Assembly: GCA_018645005.1 (NCBI GenBank)
Contig: JABGPJ010000115.1
Coordinates: 1-35,026, forward strand
Direction of reading: 5' to 3'
Origin: Deltaproteobacteria bacterium
Lineage (GTDB): Bacteria > SAR324 > XYD2-FULL-50-16
DNA length: 35,026 nucleotides
Shown here piece by piece: positions 4,052-22,066 of the stretch. The notes beneath the pieces were generated by a model, which made no database searches, was not told where the DNA came from, and was given only the letters and a program-made list of their open reading frames with translations. Both the position numbers and the translations under genes were made by a program. Within the stretch, counting starts at the first letter, position 1. Each line of letters begins with the position of its first letter.

Positions 4052-4401
4052 GAAACAGCTGAAAAAAATATCGGACATTGTTTGATGGTTGCGGAAAATT
4101 CAGGTAAATCGATCCATCCATTGATCAGATAGCGGGAAGGTCGGAGATACCTGCTTTGAAACCTCGAGCATACCAAGCTATTGACCTAAACAGCGGAACC
4201 TTACCGTTTCATTTTCATCCAGTTCAATTGATATATAATCTATCTATTATAGAGGTTTAGGTAAAATAATCGTATTTCTTTTGTAACTGTTCAGCATGGC
4301 TCCGTCGAGGGGATCATGATTCAAAACACGGATGAATCCATCCCTGGAGCCAAGTGTTTCGTTAGAAACGCGTTGGCGAAAACGTCCTGTTTTCGAGCAT
4401 T
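4052..4401. other. Gap between NosL and the TonB stub
   Basis: No gene is seen. The right part (4305-4401) is taken up by a long inverted-repeat structure described separately; the left part shows nothing distinctive. Confidence 0.4.
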
Positions 4402-4421
4402 TTGAATCATAATCCCCTCGA
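4305..4421. repeat. Long inverted repeat, 22-bp arms
   Basis: The arm at 4305-4326 (starting TCGAGGGGATCATGATTC) is the reverse complement of 4400-4421 with a single mismatch. The 73 bases between the arms contain a further perfect 7-bp hairpin (CGAAAAC/GTTTTCG). The whole can fold into a long stem with inner stems. The right arm overlaps the apparent start of the TonB-receptor stub. It may be a small non-autonomous mobile element, a strong terminator after nosL, or a leader structure. Confidence 0.6.
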
Positions 4422-4716
4422 CTCCGGAAAAGTGGTGAATAGATACTTTCTTTTTTACTTCAGTCTGGTTTGTCTATCTCTACAAACAGTATTTGCACAA
4501 AATAACACAGTCCATAACAACGACGATAATGAGAAACTCATTGAGCATAAACTTGATGAAATCAGTGTCACTGCCACTCGCATCGAACGAAAAACAGCGG
4601 AAGTTCCAGCCAGTATTGCAGTGGTAACAAAGGAGAACCTCGAAGATTCAAAAATGCATAATATTAAAGATGCATTGATAGAAGCTCCTGGGGTTCAGGT
4701 TCAATCAATCGGCTAA
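4402..4716 (+). pseudogene. TonB-dependent receptor, plug-domain stub
   Basis: The 104-residue reading frame has a signal peptide (YFLFYFSLVCLSLQTVFAQ), a TonB-box-like segment (LDEISVTATRIERKTAEVPA) and the start of the plug domain (IKDALIEAPGVQVQ), then stops at TAA. Outer-membrane receptors of this family are 600-800 residues, with a 22-strand barrel after the plug, and nothing downstream continues it. It is therefore a truncated remnant, probably left by deletion. The called start is TTG inside an inverted repeat; GTG at 4432 or 4435 would also serve. The position between NosL and SCO suggests that the lost receptor imported copper or a copper chelate, which is an inference from context. 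Confidence 0.8.
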
Positions 4717-4816
4717 TAAATTAGTCAAGTGTTTCCCATCAATGAAAAGGAAACACGTTGCTGTCACATTTTATTTGCAAAATGTTCAATGTTTTTACGA
4801 CTTTTACAAATTAATT

Positions 4817-4846
4817 ATGTGAAGCTATTTATTAACGATCCCTAAG
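4817..4846 (+). repeat. Dispersed repeat end (right-end type)
   Basis: ATGTGAAGCTATTTATTAAC followed by GATCCCTAAG closely matches 5744-5773 and, more loosely, the right end of the element at 16690-16794. It appears to be a solitary end of the same small repeat family, with no partner end nearby. Confidence 0.45.
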
Positions 4847-5589: not shown

Positions 5590-6000
5590 AGAGAGTATTT
5601 TAAGTCGATTTTTTACCCTTCGCGCGAAGAGACAAGAATGCATATTCACATTCATTCATCAGGCGGAGAAGCAAAATTCTGGCTTGAACCTCAAATTGAA
5701 TTAGCAAAAAACTCCCCAAAACACTGGACATTTTGCGAACAGAATGTGAAGCAATTTATGAGCCGACCCTAAGCATTCCATAAGGGCCAGTTGAGCACAA
5801 TGAAGCGGCTATGATTCATCCTTGCGCTTTTTCCACTACATATATATTATTGGCTGACTGGTATAGATAGATTTTACGGGCTTGAACAGAGTTCGGTGGA
5901 TTAACCTCTGCAAGCGTGCCGAGATGCCCGTAGAAGCATGGTTAGTGTTTTAGCTGATAAATGCTAATCATCGTCATCACAAACATGAAAGGAGGCTTAA
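5590..6000. other. Gap holding a dispersed repeat
   Basis: No gene was found. Positions 5704-5773 align over about 70 bases with 16728-16794, the right half of the MITE-like element, sharing blocks such as ACATTTTGC, ACAGAAT and GAGCCGACCCT. The gap ends with an excellent ribosome binding site (AAAGGAGG) for the next gene. Confidence 0.5.
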
Positions 6001-9698: not shown

Positions 9699-9725
9699 TA
9701 AGGGATCTTTCAAAAATAACTTTGG
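9699..9725 (-). repeat. Dispersed repeat end (left-end type)
   Basis: TAAGGGATCTTTCAAAAATA plus ACTTTGG matches the left terminal repeat of the element at 16690-16794 almost base for base. No matching right end is found nearby, so this is a solo end. Confidence 0.5.
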
Positions 9726-9768: not shown

Positions 9769-9774
9769 TGACTC

Positions 9775-9818
9775 AACGCCGCAAGCGGTGGAGTATTAAA
9801 TCCATGCTTCGCAATAAA
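9775..9818 (+). repeat. 44-bp dispersed palindromic repeat, copy A
   Basis: The sequence starting AACGCCGCAAGCGG and ending CGCAATAAA is found in reverse orientation at 21915-21958, with 39 of 44 bases identical. The first part can form a short CGCC/GGTG stem. It is probably a REP-like intergenic repeat of this genome. Confidence 0.6.
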
Positions 9819-10006: not shown

Positions 10007-10735
10007 ATGAATCGGAACAAAAGTGTGACACTGTTCATTCAGTGTTTGGTAGATCAGATTTACCCGGAAGTGGGCGATGCCATGGTAGCGGTTTTTCAGA
10101 AGTTGGGAATTTCCGTAAACTGTCCCACCGAGCAAACCTGTTGCGGGCAATCCGCTTATAACTCCGGCTATAAAAGCGTTTCTAAAACTGCTGCTAAAAG
10201 ATTCATTGAGATTTTTGAAAAGTCAGAGGTTATTGTATGCCCCTCGGGTTCTTGTGTAGACATGGTAAGAAACCACTATCCAAGCCTCTTTAGGAACGAA
10301 CCAGACTGGCACTCAAGAGCAGAAAACGTTGGTGGTAAAACTTATGAGTTTACCGAATACCTGGTTGATGTTTTAAAAGTGGAAGACTTTGGGGCCAGTT
10401 TTAAGGAAAAACTTACCTATCATGATTCTTGTCACCTGCTGAGAAATATCGGGGTCAAAGATCAACCGCGCAAACTGATATCAAAAGTGGCCGGCGCCGA
10501 ATTGGTTGAAATGGGAAACTCCGATAAATGCTGCGGTTTTGGCGGCACATTTTCCATAAAATACCCTCAAATCTCAACCGCTATCTTAGACGAAAAACTG
10601 GATAATATCATGTCATCCGGTGCGACTACTGTGGTGGGGTGTGATGTCGGATGTCTGATGAATATTCAGGGCAGGCTGAGTCGAAAAAAACTCCCCATAA
10701 AAACCATGCACATCGCGCAACTGCTGGTGCAATAA
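10007..10735 (+). CDS. lutA: LutA-type (Fe-S)-binding lactate utilization protein
   Basis: This is the CCG-domain subunit of the LutABC L-lactate oxidation complex (YkgE-like), which feeds electrons from lactate oxidation to pyruvate into the electron transport chain. Two CCG repeats are visible: QTCCGQSAYNSGY near residue 44 with CPSGSC downstream, and DKCCGFGGTFS near residue 180 preceded by YHDSCH. These cysteine sets coordinate iron-sulfur clusters in this family. The length of 242 residues matches LutA. It starts a run of four co-directional genes with gaps of 15, 84 and 30 bases, consistent with one operon. The ATG at 10007 has only a weak ribosome binding site. Related CCG proteins also occur in glycolate oxidase and heterodisulfide reductase, but the order with LutB and LutC settles the call. 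Confidence 0.9.
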   Translation: MNRNKSVTLFIQCLVDQIYPEVGDAMVAVFQKLGISVNCPTEQTCCGQSAYNSGYKSVSKTAAKRFIEIFEKSEVIVCPSGSCVDMVRNHYPSLFRNEPDWHSRAENVGGKTYEFTEYLVDVLKVEDFGASFKEKLTYHDSCHLLRNIGVKDQPRKLISKVAGAELVEMGNSDKCCGFGGTFSIKYPQISTAILDEKLDNIMSSGATTVVGCDVGCLMNIQGRLSRKKLPIKTMHIAQLLVQ

Positions 10736-10750
10736 TAAAGTGACGCTTAT

Positions 10751-12181
10751 ATGACAACGATTTCAACGGAACACTACAAAAACAAGGCAAAAGAAGCGAT
10801 CAAAGACGATGTTCTGCAATCAGCGCTTGCCGGACTGCAAAATCGCCTGGGACCTGCCACTGCTGCTATGTACAAAAACCTCCCCGAAGGCGACGAACTC
10901 AGGTACAAGGCCCATGAAGTTCGCATGTTTGCTTTGGATAACCTGGACATGTTACTGGAGCAACTGGCCCAAAAAATCCGGCAAAGAGGCGGGAACGTTT
11001 TTTTTGCCAGGGACCAAAAAGAGGCAGTCAATTATTGCCTTGAGATCACTCGCCGGCGCAAGGCAAAACTGGCAGTCAAAGGGAAATCAATGGTATCCGA
11101 AGAGATCGGTTTAAACGATGCGTTGATAAAGGATGGTGTCAAGGCGGTCGAGACTGATCTGGGAGAATATATTGTGCAACTGGCAGGCGAGCATCCCTCC
11201 CATATCATTGCGCCCGCAATTCATAAAACCAGAAACCAGATTGGCAGCCTGTTCGAGGAGAAACTCGGAATCTCTTATACGAACGATCCACCCACATTAA
11301 CAAAAGCAGCTCGAAAGCACTTGCGAGATGCTTTTCTCACCGCCGATATAGGATTCTCAGGGTGCAATCTGGCCTGTGCGGAAACCGGACATATCACGAC
11401 CCTTTCCAATGAAGGTAATATTCGCCTGGCCACCACTTTACCTAAAGTTCATGTGGCAATTATGGGGATGGAAAGAATAGTTGCCTCATTGGAAGATCAT
11501 GATGCACTTTTTCGACTCCTGTCCAGGGGGGCTGCGGCCCAGAATCTGGCTGGTTATGTCAGTTATATCGGAGGACCAGCTCTGGATTCTGAAATTGACG
11601 GTCCTGAAGAATTTCACCTGGTTATTCTGGACAACGGTCGCAGCAAGATTTTAGCCGATGAAGAATTCAAGGAAATTCTATGCTGTATTCGTTGCGCGGC
11701 CTGTCTGAATGTTTGTCCAGTCTACGGAAAAATCGGCGGGCACAGCTATGGGTGCACCTATACCGGCCCCATTGGAGCGGTACTAACACCCCTGATGACC
11801 GATATCGGCCAGTCCAAAGACCTGTTCCAGGGGGAGAGCCTTTGCGGAGCCTGTCAGGATAATTGTCCGGTGAACATCAATCTTCCGAGAATGCTCTTAG
11901 CCTTACGGGCGAAAACAGCGGAAGGCGACCCCAGGTGGAATATAAAGCCATCGAGTCCGGTTGAAAAATTTATATTTTCGATCTGGTCAAAGCTAATCAG
12001 TAACCGTAAAGCTTATGATTTTTTCTTTCGACTGGCCAGATTCGGACAAAAAATATTACCCACCAAAAATGGAGAAATTCGAAAACTGCCCCCTCCGTTC
12101 AGCGGCTGGACATTGGATCGGGACATGCAGCAGATTGCTTCAAAGAGTTTTATCCAGAAATGGAAAGAAACCCAGAAATAG
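10751..12181 (+). CDS. lutB: LutB-type iron-sulfur lactate utilization protein
   Basis: The central subunit of the LutABC complex combines an N-terminal LUD (DUF162-like) domain of about 300 residues with a C-terminal ferredoxin-like part carrying two 4Fe-4S motifs, CIRCAACLNVCPVYG and CGACQDNCPVNINLP. Family landmarks include KGKSMVSEEIGLN, DIGFSGCNLACAETG and EGNIRLATTLPKVHVA. The full 476 residues are the normal size. The gene begins 15 bases after lutA and probably depends on the same transcript. The C-terminal tail after the Fe-S motifs (KLPPPFSGWTLDRDM) is the usual end in bacterial homologues. The function as an electron-transferring lactate oxidation subunit is known for the family and not shown here. 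Confidence 0.92.
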   Translation: MTTISTEHYKNKAKEAIKDDVLQSALAGLQNRLGPATAAMYKNLPEGDELRYKAHEVRMFALDNLDMLLEQLAQKIRQRGGNVFFARDQKEAVNYCLEITRRRKAKLAVKGKSMVSEEIGLNDALIKDGVKAVETDLGEYIVQLAGEHPSHIIAPAIHKTRNQIGSLFEEKLGISYTNDPPTLTKAARKHLRDAFLTADIGFSGCNLACAETGHITTLSNEGNIRLATTLPKVHVAIMGMERIVASLEDHDALFRLLSRGAAAQNLAGYVSYIGGPALDSEIDGPEEFHLVILDNGRSKILADEEFKEILCCIRCAACLNVCPVYGKIGGHSYGCTYTGPIGAVLTPLMTDIGQSKDLFQGESLCGACQDNCPVNINLPRMLLALRAKTAEGDPRWNIKPSSPVEKFIFSIWSKLISNRKAYDFFFRLARFGQKILPTKNGEIRKLPPPFSGWTLDRDMQQIASKSFIQKWKETQK

Positions 12182-12265
12182 GTCATCCCAAAAAACTGAC
12201 CAGTTCGCTCTCATACCTGATCAGGACTGTGATGAAAGGAATAACCAACCAAAAAACAGGGCCAT

Positions 12266-13051
12266 ATGATCGAAGAGAACCTGAACAATCAAGATCGTTT
12301 CCTTAAAACCGTCAAAGAAGCTATTAAGGCGTCTCCGGGGGGCTATCGGAAAAACAGGGAGGAGCTGTTTAGCCGTCTTTCTCAATCTACAATCGATTCG
12401 CGCTTAAAAAAGATTCAAAACAGAACCAGAGCCGATCAGCTGAAATTGCTCGATTTGCTGATGGAACAGGCGGAACCAATAAACCTGCGGGTTATGCCGG
12501 TGAAAAACCTGCAATCTGCCTCTGAATCAATCAAAGAGCTGATTCTGGACAAAAATCCGGAATGGGGAACCGTCAAAAAAGTGGCTGCCTGGAAACACCC
12601 CCTGATCGATAAACTGAGCCTGGGTGACGCCCTGGCCAAATATGACATCCCCGTTTATCAATCAGAACTGAAAAGTACAGATGATCTGCCTGCGGGCAAA
12701 CAAATGATCCGGGAACAGATTTTTGAATCTTTTGTGGGTATCACTGCAGCAGATTTTTGTATCGCCCAGACAGCATCTCTGGTGATGAAAAGCCATCCAA
12801 ATCAGGCCAGGGCGGTTTCACTGGTTCCCTCCATTCATGTGGCCGTGATAGAGCTAAACCAGATCATCGAAAATCTGGGGGAATTTTATTTTTTGCAAAA
12901 ATGGGACCCCATTCAAAAAAAGGAGGGGCTCACCAACTGCATGACGTTGATCTCCGGGCCCAGTAAAACAGGGGATATTGAACTGATAATGGTCCATGGA
13001 GCTCACGGTCCCTGTGAACTTCATTTGTTTGTCATTACCGGTGAAACGTAG
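12266..13051 (+). CDS. lutC: LutC-type LUD domain protein
   Basis: The product is the third LutABC subunit, a LUD/DUF162 domain protein of 261 residues. The conserved core is at the C-terminal half: VGITAADFCIAQTASLVM, followed by SLVPSIHVAVIELNQII and the closing motif GPSKTGDIELIMVHGAHGP. The N-terminal half is a helical region typical of the longer LutC versions. It is separated from lutB by 84 bases without a terminator and followed 30 bases later by a LarA-like gene. LUD proteins outside lut operons have other roles, but the neighbours make the assignment firm. Confidence 0.9.
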   Translation: MIEENLNNQDRFLKTVKEAIKASPGGYRKNREELFSRLSQSTIDSRLKKIQNRTRADQLKLLDLLMEQAEPINLRVMPVKNLQSASESIKELILDKNPEWGTVKKVAAWKHPLIDKLSLGDALAKYDIPVYQSELKSTDDLPAGKQMIREQIFESFVGITAADFCIAQTASLVMKSHPNQARAVSLVPSIHVAVIELNQIIENLGEFYFLQKWDPIQKKEGLTNCMTLISGPSKTGDIELIMVHGAHGPCELHLFVITGET

Positions 13052-14943: not shown

Positions 14944-16641
14944 ATGTTCAGTCTAAGAAACCTGGGTGTTTTCGGCCGGGCATATCGACAATTCAATCGT
15001 TACCGGCACATTCTTGCAATCCTGATCAAATATGGGTTTGGGGATTTTGTGGATAGGTTGAAACTGGATCATTATCTGGAAGCCGGCATCCATCTGATCT
15101 CACGAAAACCGCGCAGAGATGTCAAAAGGATGACCCGGGCCAAACGGATCAGGCTTGTCTTCCAGGAGTTGGGCCCGACTTTTATCAAGCTCGGGCAATT
15201 ACTGTCCACCCGCTCCGACCTGATTTCAGGGGAGTATCATCAGGAGTTATTAAAACTGCAGGATCAGATTCCGCCAGCGTCTTATGAAGTCGTCCGCAAA
15301 ATCATCAAAAATGAGTTCGGCAAACCGCCTGAAGAGTTATTCCGCTATTTTGAAAAAGAGCCGCTGGCTGGCGCTTCGATAGGCCAGGTACATAAGGCGC
15401 AATTGAAGACCGGTGAAATGGTTGCGGTGAAAATCCAGCGACCGGACATCCGTAAACTGGTTATGACAGACCTGGAAATTGTCCTCCGTCTGGCCGCCTT
15501 ACTGGAACGCAATATCAAGGAGTTCGAAATCCACAGGCCCACCAGAATCGTCGCTGAATTTGCCAACAGCCTGTCGAAGGAGATTGATTATATGGTGGAG
15601 ACCGCCCATATAGAAAGATTCAAACGACAGTTTCAAGGCGACCGATCGATTCATGTTCCGAAGGTCTATCGAGAACTGACTTGTGAACACGTCATCACCA
15701 TGGAGTATATCGACGGCATTAAGATCTCCGAAGTCGAGTTGTTAAAGCAAAAAGGGTATAATCTGGAAACCATCGTCAAACGCAGCGCCGATTTAATTCT
15801 CAAACAGATATTTATCCATGGGTTTTTTCATGGTGATCCCCACCACGCAAATGTTTTCATCCTACCCGGAAATGTAATTTGTTTTCTCGATTTTGGAATG
15901 ATGGGGCGAATAAATCGGGAAGAACGGGAAAACTTCACCAACCTGGCACTGCAAATCTTTGATGGTGACGTAAAAAGGGCCGTTAATAGTCTCTTAAAAC
16001 ACACGGATTATTTCAAAGAGCCCGACAAAACCCAGTTTGAAAAAGATCTGTCTGTGCTCATTGATCAACATCTTTATCGACCCTTGAAAAATCTGGATAT
16101 TGCCAGAATGCTGCAACAATTACTATGGATAACCACCAAACACGAGCTTTGTTTCAAGCCCGACCTGCTCCTGATGGTAAAGGCGCTAAGTACCGCTGAG
16201 ATTCTCGGGAAAGAACTGGATCCAAATTTGGATCTGACCCAACATATGAGACCCTTTATCAGACAGGTCCAATTGAACCGGCTCAGCCCAAAAAGAATAA
16301 CCGAAGATATTCTCTATTCCGGGACCGAGTTTGTCAGTTTTTTTTTGAATCTTCCAGGTGAGTTGCAAGATATTCTTAAACAAGCCAGGGAGGGGAAATT
16401 CAAAATAGAATTCGAACATCAAGGGCTCAATCCAATGCTGTCTTCACATGACAAAATCAGCAATCGCATTGTTTTTGCTATTGTCCTGGCATCTTTGATT
16501 ATTGGTTCTTCACTCATCGTTCTTTCCGACGTTCCCCCAAAATGGCATGAAATCCCGATCATCGGTCTGGGTGGTTTTGTTATCGCCGGCATCATGGGGT
16601 TTTGGCTGTTATGGTCCATTCTTCGTCAGGGTAAAATGTAG
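14944..16641 (+). CDS. ubiB: UbiB/AarF/ABC1 family atypical kinase
   Basis: Members of this family are membrane-anchored protein-kinase-like ATPases needed for ubiquinone or menaquinone lipid handling. The 565-residue protein shows the KxGQ signature (FIKLGQLLSTRSDLIS), the alanine/glycine-rich nucleotide loop (LAGASIGQVHKAQL), the VAIK-like lysine (MVAVKIQRP), the catalytic loop (HGFFHGDPHHANVF) and the DFG motif (FLDFGMMGR). Two hydrophobic C-terminal helices (IVFAIVLASLIIGSSLIVL and GLGGFVIAGIMGFWLLWSIL) anchor it to the inner membrane. It starts directly on the stop codon of the phasin-like gene, so translation is probably coupled. In a quinone-using anaerobe the likely lipid partner is menaquinone, which is an inference. 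Confidence 0.9.
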   Translation: MFSLRNLGVFGRAYRQFNRYRHILAILIKYGFGDFVDRLKLDHYLEAGIHLISRKPRRDVKRMTRAKRIRLVFQELGPTFIKLGQLLSTRSDLISGEYHQELLKLQDQIPPASYEVVRKIIKNEFGKPPEELFRYFEKEPLAGASIGQVHKAQLKTGEMVAVKIQRPDIRKLVMTDLEIVLRLAALLERNIKEFEIHRPTRIVAEFANSLSKEIDYMVETAHIERFKRQFQGDRSIHVPKVYRELTCEHVITMEYIDGIKISEVELLKQKGYNLETIVKRSADLILKQIFIHGFFHGDPHHANVFILPGNVICFLDFGMMGRINREERENFTNLALQIFDGDVKRAVNSLLKHTDYFKEPDKTQFEKDLSVLIDQHLYRPLKNLDIARMLQQLLWITTKHELCFKPDLLLMVKALSTAEILGKELDPNLDLTQHMRPFIRQVQLNRLSPKRITEDILYSGTEFVSFFLNLPGELQDILKQAREGKFKIEFEHQGLNPMLSSHDKISNRIVFAIVLASLIIGSSLIVLSDVPPKWHEIPIIGLGGFVIAGIMGFWLLWSILRQGKM

Positions 16642-16689
16642 CTATTCGTTTCTGATTGGCCATGCTTCGTCAACACCCACCATGGATAT

Positions 16690-16794
16690 TTAGGGATCGT
16701 ACAAAAATAACTTGGCATAAGCTGCCCGCAAAAGTCCCTAAAAGACCGAACATTTTGCTGACAGAATACCAAGGAATTTTTGAGCCGACCCTTA
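16690..16794. mobile_element. 105-bp MITE-like element with terminal inverted repeats
   Basis: The left end at 16690-16715 (TTAGGGATCGTACAAAAATA and ACTTGG) is an imperfect inverted copy of the right end at 16769-16794, with 18 of 26 bases matching after complementing, including a run CAAAAAT and a block CTTGG. There is no coding capacity. Related sequences occur at 4817-4846, 5704-5773, 9699-9725 and 18711-18740, always between genes, which fits a small non-autonomous transposable element or palindromic repeat. The last three bases of the right end encode the stop codon of accA on the minus strand. Confidence 0.6.
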
Positions 16795-17784
16795 GAGCCC
16801 TTTAATATTTTGTGACCCGAATTTACGAAATCGATCATATCGATTTTTGGCAACCGCTGAAGGTGCCATATCCTGATATTTATGTAAATGCTTAAGTAGG
16901 TACCTTTTCATACTCTGAGCCGTTACCACTTTGTCATTGTGTGCCCCGCCCAGTGGTTCGGGAATGATATCTTCGATGACATCCAATTTTTTCAGATCTT
17001 CTGCTGTGATTTTCAGCCGTTTGGCAGCGATCGGTGCTTGAGATGGATCGTCCCACAAAATTGCTGCACACCCCTCTGGAGAGATAGTGGAATAAACGGA
17101 ATACCGCATCATCAACACATCATTGGAAAATGCAAGTCCCAAGGCCCCTCCGCTTCCGCCTTCGCCAGTGATGACAGTGATTATCGGAACTGTGATGGCG
17201 GACATTTCATAGAGATTTCTGGCGATCGCTTCTGCCTGGCCGTTTTCTTCAGCTTCAACACCCGGGTAAGCACCCGGTGTGTCGACAAGGGTAATAATCG
17301 GTAATGACAGTTTTTCAGCCAGTTTCATAAGTCTTCCGGCTTTCCGATAACCCCCGGGTTGAGCCATACCATTGTTTCGTCTTTTCCTTCCCTTAAGGTC
17401 TCGCCCCTTCTGGTGGCCGATAATCATCACCTTTTGACTGTCGATTTTTGCAAAGCCGCCAATGATGGAGGGATCATCACTATTTAATCTATCGCCATGC
17501 AGTTCGATAAAATCCGTGAATATTAAGTCAATATAATCCAAAGCGGTCGGACGGTCGATATGACGCGAGATCTTAACAATTTGATGGGGTTTCAGGTGTT
17601 CATATATTTGTTCTCTCAGTTCCTGCACCTGATTTTCCATTTTTTCTATATCTTTGGACAAATCGATATTGTGCAGCTTAGCCCCCTCTCTCAGCTCATC
17701 TATTTTATAAGCTAATTCATAAAGCGGCTTTTCAAAATCCATGATATTTTTTTTCTTTCTCTTTTTCTTTATAATTTCTTTCAT
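16792..17784 (-). CDS. accA: Acetyl-CoA carboxylase carboxyltransferase, alpha subunit
   Basis: AccA pairs with AccD to transfer the carboxyl group from biotin to acetyl-CoA, forming malonyl-CoA for fatty acid synthesis. Core motifs are GGFAKIDSQKVMIIGHQKGRD, the alpha-specific AQPGGYRKAGRLMKLAEKL, LVDTPGAYPGVEAEENGQAE, and ITGEGGSGGALGLAFSNDVL, the crotonase-fold oxyanion region. MRYSVYSTISPEGCAAILW and AAKRLKITAEDL are also typical. The ATG at 17784 gives 330 residues with a lysine-rich lead (IIKKKRKKKN); ATG 17742 (MDFEKPLYEL) gives the usual family N-terminus and 316 residues, and may be the real start. It follows accD by 36 bases. The TAA stop lies in the right end of a small repeat element, so the last residues may have been altered by its insertion. 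Confidence 0.93.
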   Translation of the reverse strand: MKEIIKKKRKKKNIMDFEKPLYELAYKIDELREGAKLHNIDLSKDIEKMENQVQELREQIYEHLKPHQIVKISRHIDRPTALDYIDLIFTDFIELHGDRLNSDDPSIIGGFAKIDSQKVMIIGHQKGRDLKGRKRRNNGMAQPGGYRKAGRLMKLAEKLSLPIITLVDTPGAYPGVEAEENGQAEAIARNLYEMSAITVPIITVITGEGGSGGALGLAFSNDVLMMRYSVYSTISPEGCAAILWDDPSQAPIAAKRLKITAEDLKKLDVIEDIIPEPLGGAHNDKVVTAQSMKRYLLKHLHKYQDMAPSAVAKNRYDRFRKFGSQNIKGL

Positions 17785-18710: not shown

Positions 18711-18740
18711 TCACTTGAGTAATTTTTGACCGATCCCTAA
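18711..18740 (+). repeat. Dispersed repeat end upstream of accD
   Basis: ACTTGAGTAATTTTTGACCG followed by ATCCCTAA matches the reverse complement of the 16690-16715 end and resembles 4817-4846. It stands alone in the accD upstream region, where it could influence the accDA promoter. Confidence 0.4.
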
Positions 18741-21914: not shown

Positions 21915-21958
21915 TTTATTGCGTAGCTTGGGTTTAATACCCCGCCGCTTGCGGCGTT
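21915..21958 (-). repeat. 44-bp dispersed palindromic repeat, copy B
   Basis: The reverse complement starts AACGCCGCAAGCGGCGGGG and matches 9775-9818 in 39 of 44 positions. It contains a self-complementary CGCCG/CGGCG stem around a CTTG tetraloop. The same stem-loop core recurs in the terminator at 22067-22087. Confidence 0.6.
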
Positions 21959-22066
21959 GTGCATTCAAGTAAATTCTGTTGTTCTAACGAAAAGCTATTA
22001 GCTATTAGGCGTTAGCCATTGGAAGCTTATGCTAATCGCTTAAAGCTAAAACCTAAAAGCTGAATA

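Follow-up and report, generated by a model that had tools for sequence, protein, structure and literature searches.

The feature at 16690–16794 of the window, the whole stretch of 35,026 nucleotides analyzed here, is a MITE, a new and abundant example of a known element type. We conclude, with a probability of about 0.88, that a 99-bp nonautonomous MITE with ISAzo13-type ends landed on the stop codon of accA, an essential fatty-acid gene, with the target TTA duplicated and accA left intact. A MITE-like nature had been proposed in a preliminary description of this DNA, and it is borne out by the number of copies, their inverted ends, a 3-bp duplication, empty sites in nested copies, and ends that are common with ISAzo13 insertion sequences. 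The features discussed below are collected in the table.

Table. Positions of the element, its neighbors, and its relatives within the window.
Feature	Position	Strand	Remarks
Degraded 137-bp relative	4706..4842	-	right end reads CAA, not GGG; no flank duplication; blastn
Relative, right part; left part missing	5708..5769	+	80% over 66 nt including flank
Solo left end	9702..9722	+	blastn and fuzzy end pattern
ABC1/UbiB-like kinase, convergent neighbor	14944..16641	+	PF03109; stop 51 bp ahead of element
Left TSD copy TTA	16690..16692	.	same triplet as 16792–16794
MITE, A subfamily	16693..16791 (99 bp)	+	GGGATCGTAC...GAGCCGACCC; 9 differences from consensus of 41 A copies
Left terminal inverted repeat (TIR)	16693..16716	+	ISAzo13-type end GGGATCGTACAAAAATAACTTGGC; cf. 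TIR of the insertion sequence at L096
Right terminal inverted repeat	16767..16791	-	minus-strand sequence GGGTCGGCTCAAAAATTCCTTGGTA
Right TSD copy TTA = accA TAA stop codon	16792..16794	-	
accA, acetyl-CoA carboxylase carboxyltransferase alpha subunit	16795..17784	-	330-aa ORF; domain complete
Solo end	18717..18737	-	fuzzy end pattern

The element starts with GGGATCG and ends with CGACCC. It had been taken beforehand for a noncoding element of 105 bp with imperfect 26-bp terminal repeats; the imperfect inverted ends and the noncoding character stand, and the length is corrected to 99 bp, with the outer TTA on either side being the target duplication. At 99 bp the element is below gene size, and no listed ORF of at least 80 amino acids crosses 16693–16791. 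Inverted symmetry reaches beyond the 26-bp ends to span most of the element. From fetched loci we assembled 99 distinct full copies, five pairs of which overlap or nest. Sixty-one of these are 99 bp in length, 22 are 137 bp, seven are 97 bp, and nine have other lengths. The 137-bp class corresponds to the 99-bp type with ~38 additional bases in the right arm, which themselves form a small inverted repeat. There are two sequence subfamilies, in which both arms differ together (AACTTGGCAT/ATGCCAAG vs. AACTTCACAT/ATGTGAAC). On average, each of the 41 A copies departs from the A consensus at 7.9 of 99 positions (two rows with as many as 44 and 45 differences are included in this mean); the window copy departs at nine.

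The draft genome to which the window belongs (3,283,507 bases in 189 contigs, 68% complete) contains 216 left ends and 215 right ends at up to two mismatches, with 0 of each for a reversed-pattern control, which excludes that copies are no more numerous than expected by chance. There are some 200 of these elements in this bacterium. Of 244 first-look candidates from a search of the same draft with the whole element, 40 were scored, giving at least 47 matches. Copies are dispersed, and the flanks of the 30 loci compared are unrelated. Across the window and 20 comparison stretches picked by contig number (247,503 bases), 16 ends were found at up to two mismatches, and the reversed and Markov controls each gave 0. 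Five of the 16 are in the window (the element's own two and those at 5749, 9702, and 18717), and the reversed window has 0. The relatives noticed earlier at 4817–4846, 5704–5773, 9699–9725, and 18711–18740 are real, being found by blastn (4777–4845 on the minus strand; 5708–5773 and 9701–9722 on the plus strand), by a fuzzy end pattern (4822, 5749, 9702, and 18717), or by both. The end at 4817–4846 has four mismatches and is identified mainly by its blastn match. The right end of the degraded relative to which it belongs contains the stop codon of a short TonB-plug ORF (4402–4716; PF07715, 25.4 bits). This receptor-plug ORF of 104 amino acids, which ends in the degraded copy (4402–4842), appears to have been truncated by the insertion or by a subsequent deletion.

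The 3-bp flanks are identical in 69 of the 99 copies, as compared with 30.2% in a control made from flanks of different copies; the TSDs of the other 30 copies are imperfect. Identical triplets are TTA (41 copies), TAA (18), ATA (7), TTT (2), and TAT (1). No identity of 4-bp flanks was found among the 108 copies of the set before duplicate removal. By counts of flanking bases the preferred target is C-TWA-G, and the duplications consist of A/T only, mostly TTA or TAA in CTTAG or CTAAG. Five copies are nested in other copies, and joining their flanks restores the interrupted element, as expected of empty sites. The rebuilt host element matches at 96% over 50 nt (L190), 94% over 50 nt (L171), 86% over 50 nt (L184), 87% over 47 nt (L196), and 92% over 37 nt (L024). 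Nested copies L190 and L024 have an exact ATA duplication at the junction, while the flanking triplets of L171, L184, and L196 are unequal. Because only two host positions are involved (one in L171, L184, and L196, the other in L190 and L024), the five need not be independent. In L171, L184, and L196, which are several places in the window's own genome, a B-type element occurs at one position, 40 bp into an A-type element, as if this A/B composite had spread as a unit.

The position of copies relative to genes was scored in a set of 97 (after two overlapping copies were dropped), of which 12 had too little flank, leaving 85; the ORFs for this purpose came from a simple script, and individual assignments may be wrong. 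Sixty-two of the scored copies are intergenic, nine are inside ORFs, and 14 are on stop codons. In 10 of the 14 the TSD serves as the stop of an ORF at least 100 codons long, and in four the stop is formed by the final TA of the TSD plus the base after it. By comparison with the 9 of 85 copies inside ORFs, 88 of 136 CTWAG sites in the sample are so located. Stop codons account for 14 of 76 nondisruptive copies. The corresponding figures are 7 of 48 for nondisruptive CTWAG sites (p 0.38) and 52 of 542 for YTWAR sites (p 0.021), and at these values we do not claim special targeting of stop codons. Target preference along with selection against damaging insertions explains the recurrent landing on stop codons, with no need for special targeting. 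Among the 76 copies, 46 are in tandem, 16 in divergent, and 14 in convergent contexts, and the respective shares of intergenic bases are 62%, 25%, and 13%. It follows that the gene context of copies tracks the available intergenic bases. A more sweeping proposal is that ISAzo13-type ends mark a multi-phylum nonautonomous superfamily with a 'stop-safe' design that settles on gene ends at no cost. The CTWAG target, the 3-bp duplication, and the initial G of the element would together rebuild TAA, or a stop from the last TA of the triplet. If this were true, copies could settle at the ends of genes, essential ones included, cost-free. We regard this proposal as unlikely.

The closest counterpart to the MITE ends was found in a Bacteroidales MAG (L096), which has a complete ISAzo13-family insertion sequence with perfect 29-bp TIRs (GGAATCGTTAAAAAATAACTTTCCCATTT), a TSD of TGT, and a 339-amino acid transposase (PF07592, 304.7 bits). 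The first 21 bases of this TIR are identical at 20 positions to the left end of the B subfamily and at 18 to that of the window copy. These matches, along with the 3-bp TSD, identify the MITE ends as being of ISAzo13 type. A second PF07592 transposase (L093) has the TIR GGAACTGTAATAAAATAACATGG and a TSD of TTA, with ends less close to the MITE than those of L096. In the window's genome, PF07592 matches are confined to the edges of contigs C94 and C4, with ends GGGCCTCGGCAAAAAATAAATAAAC beside TTA on both sides. This ISAzo13 copy is divided between two contig edges in a draft that is 68% complete, and its ends clearly differ from those of the MITE. A TSD length of 3 bp is common to the MITE and to all three of these insertion sequences.

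Eight ISAzo13 loci were examined for inverted repeats on their flanks, which are clear in L093 and L096 only; a full-length transposase gene (L201) has a weak 18-bp flanking pair of other sequence, and nothing convincing was seen in the other five. Similar ends are located just behind transposase fragments in three further loci (L098, L099, and L104), with the fragments in L099 and L104 falling below the family cut-off. A PF07592 search of the 12 listed end-bearing genomes and a genome of the same genus (G001) gave matches in seven of 13, six of them over the cut-off. PF07592 first-look candidates occur in 42 of 52 genomes of the class, and four pass E 1e-60, so that no near donor is seen. No autonomous insertion sequence with exactly the MITE's GGGATCGTNCAAAAATAACTT ends was found in the 68% complete draft or at the loci examined elsewhere, and no transposase with these ends was recognized by eye among the ORFs beside those end-bearing loci of other genomes that were listed. 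Of the parent insertion sequence with matching ends that had been anticipated, there is thus a near match (the ISAzo13 element of L096) and none that is exact.

The IS5/PIF-Harbinger superfamily has TWA duplications and GG ends, and an origin there instead of in ISAzo13 would fit both the 3-bp duplications and the termini of the element. The genome also has one PF01609 transposase, the sole IS5-type family covered. However, this transposase gene (L050, ORF 1735–2949) lacks such ends, and the end copies at 1132–1332 of its contig are two separate MITEs; as a single copy with the wrong ends, the PF01609 element was rejected as the MITE parent. With a near-identical end serving as the TIR of an ISAzo13 element, an IS5-type origin is highly improbable. 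The location of the accA stop codon at the very edge of the element raises another alternative, namely that the ancestral gene was longer and was cut by the end of the element. The preliminary description had likewise supposed that the terminal repeat supplies the stop and that the last AccA residues may have been trimmed or replaced. However, the accA ORF including its stop runs from 17784 to 16792 on the minus strand, and the TAA (16794–16792) is exactly the right TSD copy, that is, duplicated host target adjoining the terminal repeat. TTA is present on both sides of the element, and the reconstructed empty site has the same 330-codon ORF, with its stop in the single TTA. The translation of 16795–17736 matches PF03255 (444.7 bits) from profile position 4 to the final position, 310 of 310, with seven AccA residues remaining after it. 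AccA tails recovered from three relatives also end within four columns of the window AccA; the closest full-length AccA proteins found, in six relatives, are 44–50% identical. Duplication of the target TTA at the accA stop thus restored the stop codon, AccA appears unchanged, and a shortened or replaced tail is extremely unlikely.

A different kind of explanation is that the element has been retained for its function as an RNA structure at 3' ends, such as a terminator or mRNA stabilizer, of genes such as accA; its conservation would then be due to the hairpin and not to mobility. The element does fold as a long hairpin (−41.6 kcal/mol and z −6.55 for the minus strand of the window copy, the accA sense), this strand folds more stably than the other in 90 of 99 copies, and seven of 19 consensus pairs have changes on both sides. 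The last figure comes from a hand-picked alignment of 54 of 61 own 99-bp copies, four of seven own 97-bp copies, and four foreign copies, with one row (L174) oppositely oriented. Since the copies are of common descent, neither the asymmetry between strands nor the paired changes can be counted as independent. Moreover, arm-to-arm correction of palindromes can produce paired changes, and would yield the same pattern here. The tandem, divergent, and convergent counts given above reveal no bias toward gene ends, no terminator-like site was found at 16550–16900, and Rfam gave 0 matches in the window at the gathering score. We therefore consider retention for an RNA function very unlikely. That a 99-nt hairpin 3' of accA affects mRNA 3' ends is possible but not supported.

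For the insertion of a nonautonomous MITE, the reading we prefer, the sequences suggest the following course. An ISAzo13-family (PF07592) DDE transposase would have bound the MITE ends and mobilized the element in trans. The target at accA was the TAA stop codon (TTA on the plus strand), and a staggered cut followed by repair doubled its three bases. Through this duplication accA retained its stop and its entire coding sequence, and the element now separates accA from the convergent UbiB-like gene. Its effect at this site is most likely neutral.

Among the genomes examined, the family is amplified in that of the window. A search of 58 relatives with the consensus gave nothing beyond this genome except a weak match in G001 (72%, ~66 nt). 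Three others of the 52 class genomes have one end match each, as compared with six matches of the reversed control in genomes other than that of the window (G000). A scan of public genomes with the MITE end found at least 14 stretches in at least 12 genomes, which belong to several phyla by record title; the matches listed include Desulfobacterales, Planctomycetota, Bacteroidales, Chlamydiae, Latescibacterota, Oceanirhabdus, and others. Among these listed matches, the same MITE family with both ends is present in L080, L081, L088, L085, and L084 (99, 99, 99, 121, and 87 bp, respectively), from records titled Desulfobacula sp. D100SM.bin.15, Desulfobacteraceae Bpl_22, SMBSF44, and Latescibacterota SI047_bin62. 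The three 99-bp copies are 81–85% identical to the A consensus. In Oceanirhabdus (L087), a 99-bp element shares these ends but has a different interior. The related copies in records of other groups suggest horizontal spread of the MITE family. A 5.2-Mb MAG titled Akkermansia muciniphila (L079 and L086) also has ISAzo13-type ends, and its title is possibly wrong. Plasmids searched with a B-type 106-mer gave three records, none matching over 80% of the query, and viral contigs gave 0 exact matches.

Several other observations concern accA and the rest of the window. Proper AccA matches were obtained in five genomes of the same family (G002, G003, G005, G006, and G007). By contrast, the congeneric G001 and three further members of the family (G004, G008, and G009) gave only weak carboxyltransferase matches (best E 6e-8 or weaker than 1e-9). 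The accA DNA had no match in plasmids. A second repeat family in the window forms a 45-nt inverted pair (9774–9818 and 21915–21959) that is 89% complementary and has a CCGCCGCTTGCGGCG-like palindrome, and a further inverted repeat of 23 nt (4304–4326 and 4400–4422) is 96% complementary, with 73 nt between its arms. Three ORFs at 10007–13051 may constitute a LutA/LutB/LutC lactate-utilization set, which they resemble by eye.

These results correct a natural misreading, in that a stop codon seemingly donated by a mobile element is a duplicated host target and the protein is untouched. They also provide ISAzo13, a little-studied insertion sequence family, with an associated MITE that has more than 200 ends in a 3.3-Mb draft, and the end sequence is usable as a probe for related elements in other phyla. 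The MITE end sequences were not found in the full texts searched, and no description of an ISAzo13-associated MITE was found in the literature searched, in which most matches were judged by listing. The available part of one survey gives ISAzo13 counts for each phylum and refers to MITEs in general terms only (PMC9208149).

ISAzo13 insertion sequences (PF07592, 'Rhodopirellula transposase DDE domain') resemble the MITE in terminal sequence, GG start, and 3-bp duplication, as well as in their target, which is TTA for two of the three insertion sequences seen. They differ in being ~1.3 kb in length with a transposase, whereas the MITE is mostly 99 or 137 bp, without a transposase, and has a palindromic interior in which no transposase remnant was noticed. 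RUP of pneumococcus, a MITE linked to IS630-Spn1, is described in the accessible portion of a review as similarly noncoding, ~100 bp in length, present in more than 100 copies, and having ends common with a resident insertion sequence family; its ends are of IS630 and its targets TA, in contrast to the ISAzo13-type ends and 3-bp duplications here (PMC2229807). MITEAba12, which is linked to ISAba12, is likewise similar, as far as the consulted part of its report goes, in its length of ~113 bp, TIRs common with a co-resident insertion sequence, and TSD-based evidence for mobility. It differs in its 9-bp TSD, its insertion sequence family, and its 90 copies across many genomes (PMC6382973).
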